Shown here in pieces: positions 4,551 through 39,201 of a DNA stretch of 64,000 nucleotides. Under the pieces are notes generated by a model. It was not told the DNA's origin. It did not search any database and saw only the letters and a list, made by a program, of their open reading frames with translations. This DNA is from Actinomycetota bacterium (GTDB lineage Bacteria > Actinomycetota > Thermoleophilia > Gaiellales > Gaiellaceae), in assembly GCA_009702325.1 (NCBI GenBank), contig WLID01000001.1:124001-188000 (forward strand). The letters are read 5' to 3'. Positions within the stretch are counted from its first letter, which is position 1. Every line of letters begins with the position of its first letter. The position numbers and the translations under genes were made by a program.

Positions 4551-5014
4551 TCCCCGGCCTCGAACGGCTCCCGCTCAAGCGGTTCGAAGACGAACGCGGC
4601 TGGTTCTCGGAGCTCGCCCGCGCAAGCGGACTGCCGAAGCCGATCCGCCAGGTCAACCTGTCGCGCTCTGCGAAGGGTGTGATCCGCGGCCTGCACTTCC
4701 ACGAACGAGGCCAAGACGATCTCTTCGTCTGCCTTGAAGGGATGGTGCGCGTCGTCGTCCTCGACCGCACGACGGGCGAGACGTTCACCGAAGACATCGG
4801 CGACGACAACCCGGTCGCGGTCTACGTTCCTGGTATTCACGCCCACGGGTACGAGGCGTTGACCGACTGCCTGTTCAGCTACCTCGTCACCGAGGAGTAC
4901 GACCCAGCGAACCCTGACGAGCACGGTGTCGCCTGGAACGACCCGCGCGTCGTCCACCTTTGGAGCACGCAATCACCGCTTCTCTCCGCCCGGGACACGG
5001 CCGCGGCGCTCTGA
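4547..5014 (+). CDS. rmlC: dTDP-4-dehydrorhamnose 3,5-epimerase
   Basis: A 155-residue cupin of the RmlC family, which epimerises dTDP-4-keto-6-deoxyglucose at C3 and C5. Visible family features are RGWFSE near residue 20, the IRGLHFH motif with the catalytic His near residue 51, and the YVPGIHAHGYEAL segment near residue 95. It is shorter than the typical 180-200 residues because of a short C terminus. The GTG start at 4547 overlaps the rmlA stop (GTGA), which implies coupled translation. Its 3' end overlaps rmlD by about 55 bases. Confidence 0.9.
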   Translation: MIPGLERLPLKRFEDERGWFSELARASGLPKPIRQVNLSRSAKGVIRGLHFHERGQDDLFVCLEGMVRVVVLDRTTGETFTEDIGDDNPVAVYVPGIHAHGYEALTDCLFSYLVTEEYDPANPDEHGVAWNDPRVVHLWSTQSPLLSARDTAAAL

Positions 5015-14269: not shown

Positions 14270-14342
14270 GGGCCGTTAGCTCAGTTGGTAGAGCAGGGGA
14301 CTCTTAATCCCAAGGTCGAAGGTTCGAGCCCTTCACGGCCCA
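14270..14342 (+). tRNA. tRNA-Lys (anticodon CTT)
   Basis: A 73-base cloverleaf: acceptor GGGCCGT/ACGGCCC, D arm GCTC...GAGC, anticodon loop CTCTTAA with CTT at its centre, T arm GAAGG-TTCGAGC-CCTTC and discriminator A. The CCA end is not encoded. The 3' end is a common integrase target, and a tyrosine integrase lies 3.5 kb downstream. Confidence 0.97.
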
Positions 14343-38372: not shown

Positions 38373-38426
38373 CGAGGGCACGAAAGAAAGCCCGACATGT
38401 CCTCCGGTCGGCTCGCTACATTTTTT
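38371..38426 (+). terminator. Terminator-like structure after tag
   Basis: AGCGAG (38371-38376) pairs with CTCGCT (38412-38417) around an inner CC-GAC/GTC-GG stem, and TTTTTT follows three bases later (38421-38426). The stem is imperfect, so strength is uncertain. Confidence 0.6.
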
Positions 38427-38455
38427 CCAACCGCGGAAAGGAGGTGGTCCGGTTC

Positions 38456-38497
38456 ATGGAGTCTTCCAGTACGGGCAGTGGAGGTACGAGCTCGTAG
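38456..38497 (+). CDS. Possible 13-codon leader peptide
   Basis: ATG at 38456, 11 bases after the exceptional AAAGGAGGT site, opens a 13-codon frame rich in Ser, Gly and Thr (MESSSTGSGGTSS) that stops with TAG at 38495-38497. The stop lies within the perfect palindrome. The strength of the ribosome site is the only evidence. A second frame across the same site (ending at 38532) has no start codon near it. Confidence 0.35.
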   Translation: MESSSTGSGGTSS

Positions 38498-38656
38498 GAG
38501 CGCGTCCCCGGAACCTGACGGGAACCGCTTAGCCAGCGTAGGGGAGTACGCGTTACCGCGCCGCTGATGCACCCAGCCGCTACCGGCATAGCCGTGAGTT
38601 GCATGGAGCGATCGGCCGGAAGCGCTCCTGCGAAATCTCAGCTCGTTTACCGGATT

Positions 38657-38686
38657 GAGGGCCGCCACAAGCGGCCCTCTTTCTTT
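38657..38686 (+). terminator. Strong rho-independent terminator
   Basis: A nine-base perfect stem GAGGGCCGC/GCGGCCCTC with the loop CACAA, then TTTCTTT. There is no coding gene within 280 bases upstream on this strand, so it ends a non-coding transcript or attenuates one. Confidence 0.92.
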
Positions 38687-38723
38687 GTGACGGCGCTTCC
38701 GACGAGATCCGGGCCTCGAGCGT

Positions 38724-38838: not shown

Positions 38839-39201
38839 ATGAAGAAGCTCGCTGCTGCACTCACGTTGGTCGCGGCTCTCGCGTTCAGCGCTGTCTCGTT
38901 CGCTGCCGATTCGCCGACGACGACCACCGCGACGGCACCCGCGAAGGGTGGCGCGGCAGGCAATGGCGCCCTTGCTGCCCATCTCGCGCAGATCCAGGAT
39001 CGGGCAAGCAAGCTCTCCGCGAAGTGCGCTGCGCATCCGAACCCGAAGTGCACCGCCCGTAAGGCCGCGTTTGTCACAAAGCTGAACGACTTCGATGCGA
39101 AGCTCGCGACGCGCATCGCCGCGACGACGGGCCCGAAGAAGCTCGCGAAGCTCAACGAAGCGAAGACCGCCGTTGACTCGCTGATCAGCTCGCTCGGCTA
39201 A
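38839..39201 (+). CDS. Small secreted protein, unknown function
   Basis: 120 residues with a clear signal peptide (KKLAAALTLVAALAFSAVSFAA) and a Thr/Ala/Gly-rich short linker. The mature part is helical and cationic and carries two Cys close together (KCAAHPNPKC) that could form a disulfide. The ATG at 38839 follows GGAAAGG at good spacing; longer frames lack signal character. No family was recognised. It is preceded by an 11-bp direct-repeat operator, so its expression is probably controlled by a two-component regulator. Small helical secreted proteins like this may bind metal, wall polymer or stress ligands, but nothing in the sequence selects one. Confidence 0.75.
   Translation: MKKLAAALTLVAALAFSAVSFAADSPTTTTATAPAKGGAAGNGALAAHLAQIQDRASKLSAKCAAHPNPKCTARKAAFVTKLNDFDAKLATRIAATTGPKKLAKLNEAKTAVDSLISSLG

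Follow-up and report, generated by a model that had tools for sequence, protein, structure and literature searches.

This study identifies, as read from the sequence, a conserved RNA gene at positions 38417-38688 of the forward strand of the window, that is, the whole 64,000-nucleotide stretch of Gaiellales DNA that was analysed (genome G000). Judged by homology, the RNA is a form of an actinobacterial small RNA known by name, Ms_IGR-5 (Rfam RF02471), to which we add a reading frame conserved throughout the phylum, the two registers in which that frame is read and the Gaiellales branch itself. We consider it probable, at roughly 60%, that the molecule is a free-standing actinobacterial small RNA that acts in trans and whose fold is set by ribosome loading. 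Its homology, the SD match to 16S rRNA, the conservation of the ORF across frames, the covariation of its helices, the promoter and the terminator are established at the level of sequence. The parts follow one another in the order -10 box, 16S match, 13-codon ORF, helix P1 with the stop codon, inner domain (P2/P4/P5) and intrinsic terminator.

38417..38422, forward strand: -10 box TACATT of the RNA's own promoter, predicting a transcription start near 38429
38436..38450, forward strand: SD1, GAAAGGAGGTGGTCC, pairing with the 16S 3' tail GGATCACCTCCTTTC over 15 nt with one G-U
38456..38497, forward strand: mini-ORF of 13 codons plus TAG, peptide MESSSTGSGGTSS; ATG at 38456, TAG at 38495-38497
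38480..38485, forward strand: SD2-like GGAGGT within the ORF, 9 nt before the stop
38486..38491, forward strand: P1a 5' strand, ACGAGC (covariation)
38494..38503, forward strand: P1b 5' strand, GTAGGAGCGC, holding the stop TAG at 38495-38497 (covariation)
38505..38545, forward strand: inner domain in its Gaiellales form, P2 and hairpin P4
38505-38509/38541-38545, forward strand: P2, TCCCC/GGGGA, enclosing P4 (covariation analysis)
38526-38528/38536-38538, forward strand: hairpin P4 (covariation analysis)
38549..38560, forward strand: hairpin P5, CGCG/CGCG (covariation analysis)
38622..38631, forward strand: P1b 3' strand, GCGCTCCTGC (covariation)
38641..38646, forward strand: P1a 3' strand, GCTCGT (covariation)
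38657..38687, forward strand: intrinsic terminator, a perfect 9-bp stem at 38657-38679 followed by the T-rich tail TTTCTTTG

The RNA gene and its neighbourhood

The original prediction, made from the letters of this DNA, was of a structured non-coding region closed by a nine-base perfect terminator, possibly a new small RNA. The term small RNA is supported: the sequence shows a promoter of its own, a covarying structure and the terminator as described, and transcripts of orthologues have been published for Streptomyces lividans, S. avermitilis and Mycobacterium smegmatis (PMC8079986, PMC8780764, PMC10454040). A terminator hairpin occupies the equivalent place in relatives, and the RNA region folds with a z-score of -2.46, four of 200 shuffled sequences being equally stable. 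The 5' boundary had been set at 38437; with a -10 box at 38417-38422 and a predicted transcription start near 38429, the RNA begins slightly earlier. Evidence against the reading preferred below comes from one Gaiellales genome (G031; loci L017 and L067), where the terminator lies directly 3' of P2, so that P1 lacks its 3' strand although the SD and ORF are intact. One MAG, MGR_bin78, carries two divergent copies of the RNA (L072 and L084), for which duplication or a mixed bin are possible explanations.

Named by sequence resemblance rather than by family tests, the upstream neighbours are sufS, a SufU-like protein, a Rieske-type ferredoxin and a DNA-3-methyladenine glycosylase I-like gene, while downstream of the RNA, on the other strand, lies dcd, also named by resemblance. 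Within the Gaiellales, dcd is the next conserved gene, on the opposite strand and at a variable distance from the RNA. Between clades the gene 3' of the terminator varies, and a comparison of clade neighbourhoods revealed no conserved same-direction gene behind it. These observations bear on a further suggestion of the original prediction, a peptide-controlled attenuator acting in cis on a downstream gene. A mini-ORF followed by structure and a terminator is indeed the layout of an attenuator, but the downstream genes differ by clade, dcd stands on the opposite strand, no conserved anti-terminator alternative came to light and the peptide varies over the phylum, all of which make this explanation highly improbable. 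What survives of the idea concerns the short frame, whose translation is very probably of importance to the RNA.

Just downstream of the RNA, positions 38840-39201 of the window encode a predicted secreted protein of about 120 aa, for which no homologue was found in the other fetched relatives at E 1e-8.

A divergent member of the Ms_IGR-5 family

Two covariance models, one built from Gaiellales sequences alone (R1) and one phylum-wide (R2), were used to follow the RNA through the Actinomycetota. Within the class, R1 recovers the RNA in 114 of 199 genomes, and across the phylum in 59 of 396, usually at one locus in each; R2 finds the RNA, nearly always in single copy, in 144 of 396 sampled Actinomycetota genomes. 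Rfam names the Mycobacterium- and Streptomyces-like loci (genera as inferred) RF02471, Ms_IGR-5, an Actinobacteria sRNA represented by ncMSMEG15794c in M. smegmatis and SLIV_16488 in S. lividans. An independent search with RF02471 arrives at the loci found by R1, among them those in families f5 and f10, which belong to the class of the window. On contig C1 of genome G269, R1 spans 5201109-5201240 and RF02471 5201054-5201239; on contig C18 of G092, a genome of the window's class in which RF02471 exceeds its cut-off, the corresponding spans are 4776-4892 and 4720-4891.

In the window, RF02471 gave no match at E values up to 5 and none reaching its curated cut-off of 45 bits, and it gave no match in G000 as a whole or in the other Gaiellales genomes searched. 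Because R1 and RF02471 coincide, and RF02471 stops short of the Gaiellales, the window RNA belongs to the Ms_IGR-5 clan as a divergent form that escapes Rfam. The earlier statement that the region fits no common RNA family is therefore correct for the window itself, as far as the Rfam searches go, but not for the family, the relatives of which are RF02471. Similarly, the word 'new' suits a Gaiellales form that is invisible to Rfam and possesses its own inner domain, but not the Mycobacterium and Streptomyces orthologues. The sole above-threshold Rfam match of the window is a tRNA gene at 14270-14342.

The Gaiellales RNA and Ms_IGR-5 share, in the same order, an SD block, an in-frame mini-ORF, GAGGUG, a stop, P1 and a terminator, with a GAGGU motif 9-10 nt before the stop. 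They differ in reading register, GGA GGT in the Gaiellales RNA and GAG GTG in RF02471 members, in the extra P2-P4 domain of the Gaiellales RNA, and in its simple terminator, which contrasts with the long branched one of mycobacterial Ms_IGR-5. In the open-access literature we found no account of what Ms_IGR-5 does, nor any mention of a mini-ORF running through the phylum, of its two registers or of a Gaiellales branch.

A 5' end complementary to the 16S rRNA tail

In 155 of 202 non-redundant members the pattern TANNNT precedes the SD block by 12-13 nt, where shuffled sequences lead one to expect about 21 over a wider range; other families have CANNNT as their -10 box. Since the box stands 12-13 nt before the SD block in most members, the 16S match would lie at the extreme 5' end of the transcript. 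The 3' end of 16S rRNA reads GGATCACCTCCTTTCT in two Gaiellales genomes, one Mycobacterium and one Streptomyces genome, and in all four the mature end is complementary to SD1. The lone departure from perfect complementarity, at window position 38447 (G for A, giving a G-U pair), is itself a G in 184 of 191 members. The SD1 block is kept phylum-wide, a conservation that is partly ascertained because the models weight SD1 heavily and one extraction step selected on it.

The 'extreme ribosome site' of the original prediction is well borne out. Its 15-mer, GAAAGGAGGTGRTCC, has a single occurrence in G000 and is present in 20 of 31 Gaiellales genomes, in each of them at this RNA. Only two extra matches were obtained, one being the 16S 3' end in antisense and the other a contig, from a genome with 5% contamination, that bears a copy of the RNA of foreign type; the reversed pattern gave none in the 31 Gaiellales genomes. 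Literature searches yielded nothing relevant on sRNAs complementary to the 16S 3' end.

Such a site could also belong to an RNA that soaks up free 30S subunits as a decoy or sponge, in which the 15-bp duplex with the 16S tail would lower initiation elsewhere and translation of the RNA itself would be incidental. This is consistent with the near-complete complementarity to the 16S tail, with the placement of the site at the RNA 5' end, with the uniqueness of the SD1 15-mer in the genome and with the many TTG, ATT, CTG and ATC starts, which would suit slow initiation. A decoy would not require a stop codon, however, and yet start, frame and stop are all conserved and the helix around the stop covaries; we regard this explanation as unlikely.

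A reading frame conserved in two registers

The 13-codon frame of the original prediction, ATG to TAG at 38456-38497, has counterparts throughout the family. A permissive start leads in frame to a stop in 190 of 191 non-redundant members; members share descent, so that such counts are not independent events, and the support lies in persistence of the frame through length changes and two registers. The starts are mostly TTG and GTG, with ATT, CTG and ATC also found and ATG rare. Because the permissive test allowed seven start codons, a stricter one was applied to the frame of ATG, GTG and TTG codons located 6-13 nt past the SD, and 152 of 164 such codons in phylum-wide members proved to be in frame with the stop. 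The distance from SD1 to the stop ranges from 38 to 57 nt, regardless of multiples of three. Among 36 held-out loci, mostly from unseen families and used in no model, the ORF was present in 36 of 36, with 33 of 37 start-like codons in frame.

The shared GGAGGUG motif is read GGA GGT in the Gaiellales and some other lineages and GAG GTG in most other families. The interval from AGGU to the stop is 9 nt in the GGA GGT register (117 members) and 10 nt in the GAG GTG register (74 members); that is, the stop shifts by exactly 1 nt, tracking the reading register. Stop codons interchange in kind (TAG 166, TGA 14, TAA 11). As the frame survives both length changes and two registers, what selection has conserved is translation and its end point, not one peptide, and the mini-ORF is very probably translated, over 10 to 15 codons. 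Published Ribo-seq of M. abscessus and M. smegmatis shows ribosome footprints on Ms_IGR-5 (PMC4974804), in support of this reading. In genus g30 (L036, L042, L044) and family f5 (L158, L204), a lineage-wide CTG or ATT start seems to be used, together with the strongest possible SD.

The same frame could alternatively belong to a tiny mRNA, dual-function or purely coding, with the 10-15 aa peptide as its product and with a structure that serves stability and translation control. The conserved ORF and strong SD fit such an RNA, as do peptide ends kept within lineages (SGG-x-x-x before the stop in Gaiellales, EV-x-x-x before the stop in most others) and the mycobacterial ribosome footprints (PMC4974804). 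The same motif is nevertheless read in different frames to give unrelated peptides in two lineages, the N-terminal half varies greatly, and such residues as are conserved are imposed by the RNA sequence of GGAGGUG/P1a, so that a coding function is fairly unlikely.

A covarying helix around the stop codon

Helix P1 comprises P1a and P1b, the second of which contains the stop codon in its 5' strand; ACC at 38649-38651, 3' of P1a, can in addition pair with GGT at 38483-38485. Conservation of the SD2-like motif may serve pairing, the motif being also part of P1a. The perfect 12-base palindrome to which the original prediction had pointed, TACGAGCTCGTA at 38485-38496, does exist, but it is kept only in very close relatives and forms part of P1a.

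The check proposed with that prediction, a covariation search in relatives, came out in favour of a structured RNA. A homologue of the RNA region was found in 49 of 61 related genomes, and in 30 diverse Gaiellales sequences 98.1% of pairs are standard, 12 pairs have two-sided changes and the covariation score is 0.216; none of 500 shuffles reached any of these figures, which are lost when the partners are slid. Across the phylum (102 sequences, R1-aligned), 94.3% of P1 cells pair, in an alignment that leans towards the model, and one P1 position is occupied by CG in 32 sequences, AU in 30, UA in 23 and GC in 10. Comparison of P1 duplex energy with shuffled 3' sequence was uninformative, since only 23 of 186 real sequences outdid every one of their 20 shuffles; column covariation and a cognate/non-cognate test were therefore used, and the latter showed, for 93 of 99 sequences, better P1 pairing by the cognate 3' strand than by non-cognate strands on average.

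The columns of P2 and P4 are gaps in 63-70 of the 102 phylum-wide rows, these helices being mainly a feature of the Gaiellales form. Competing pairings, P2 versus P3, were noted in the inner domain, and an alternative pairing of GGCG with an inner CGCC also fits the alignment columns. The 3' strand of P1 has, between P1a and P1b, a bulge GAAUCCA/CGAAUUCC that is conserved in many members (L165, L170, L173), the likeness of which to the 3' half of the tRNA T-loop may be chance.

A further alternative is a regulatory sRNA whose loops base-pair with target mRNAs, its ribosome site being incidental or serving turnover. A stand-alone transcript with a terminator would be expected of such a molecule, its orthologues have been published as sRNA in mycobacteria, and the loop GGGAAUCGCCUAGCCAGCG is strictly conserved in the Gaiellales. 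The most conserved elements are, however, the ribosome site, the ORF frame and P1, not the loops, and the inner loops are lineage-specific, which renders this explanation distinctly unlikely.

Proposed mechanism and significance

According to the reading that we prefer, a trans-acting RNA with a fold set by ribosome loading, the RNA would be made from its own promoter and ended by its own terminator, and its 5' end would pair with essentially the whole single-stranded 16S tail, so that 30S subunits should load very efficiently. The ribosome would translate 10-15 codons and halt at the stop codon within helix P1, where the SD2-like motif may hold the terminating ribosome; with the stop codon occupying the A site, this motif lies 7-8 nt before the P-site codon. 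With a ribosome loaded, P1 would be open; with no ribosome, P1 would be closed and the second motif hidden. Because P1 would open and close with ribosome loading, the fold of the RNA would be set by its being translated and not by the peptide made. The fold could thereby report ribosome loading, and we infer that the signal would pass to a downstream target through some free strand or through RNA stability. More tentatively, the RNA may be a phylum-wide housekeeping RNA that captures 30S subunits, runs the mini-ORF and parks the ribosome at the stop by means of the second SD, as a stand-alone sensor of ribosome state. To our knowledge, this type of regulatory RNA has not previously been described.

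The RNA is found in single copy across much of the Actinomycetota, including Mycobacterium and Streptomyces. The start-to-stop frame, kept in changing registers, provides a first concrete handle on the function of the family. If the RNA does read ribosome loading, it would represent a new bacterial way to sense translation capacity.

Comparison with known systems

Ribosome-mediated attenuators, of the trp type or the whiB7/wblC leader, place a short ORF before an RNA structure and a terminator. The window RNA resembles them in layout, and in both the position of the ribosome would alter the fold; unlike them, it has no regulated downstream gene, and its terminator ends a stand-alone RNA. The whiB7/wblC leader was itself considered on account of its mini-ORF and terminator layout and was rejected, as no WhiB gene was seen to follow the Mycobacterium or Streptomyces loci. 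tmRNA (RF00023) is likewise a structured RNA that is also translated over a short frame; it was rejected on finding no match at the locus and no tRNA-like domain, the tmRNA of G000 lying elsewhere (C6:27864-28227). Streptomyces scr2736 was set aside, S. lividans listing Ms_IGR-5 and scr2736 as separate entries.

The search for a direct Rfam identity of the window RNA returned only a sub-threshold match to CC2171 (RF01867), with 25.8 bits against a curated cut-off of 75; the SD and a hairpin account for the score, and the greater part of the model is deleted in the alignment. The CC2171-like sRNAs of alphaproteobacteria (L280, L281, L285; position ~509) are stand-alone RNAs that begin with the same extended SD, AAAGGAGGTGAT(C/T), and continue with a short ORF and a terminator. 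Their ORF, in contrast, has 24-26 codons and begins V-S-H-C, and they have no structure in common with the window RNA. The two are parallel in design and apparently unrelated, and CC2171 perhaps works alike; this parallel hints at a broader class in which supposed 'sRNAs' are in fact ribosome-loaded mini-ORFs.
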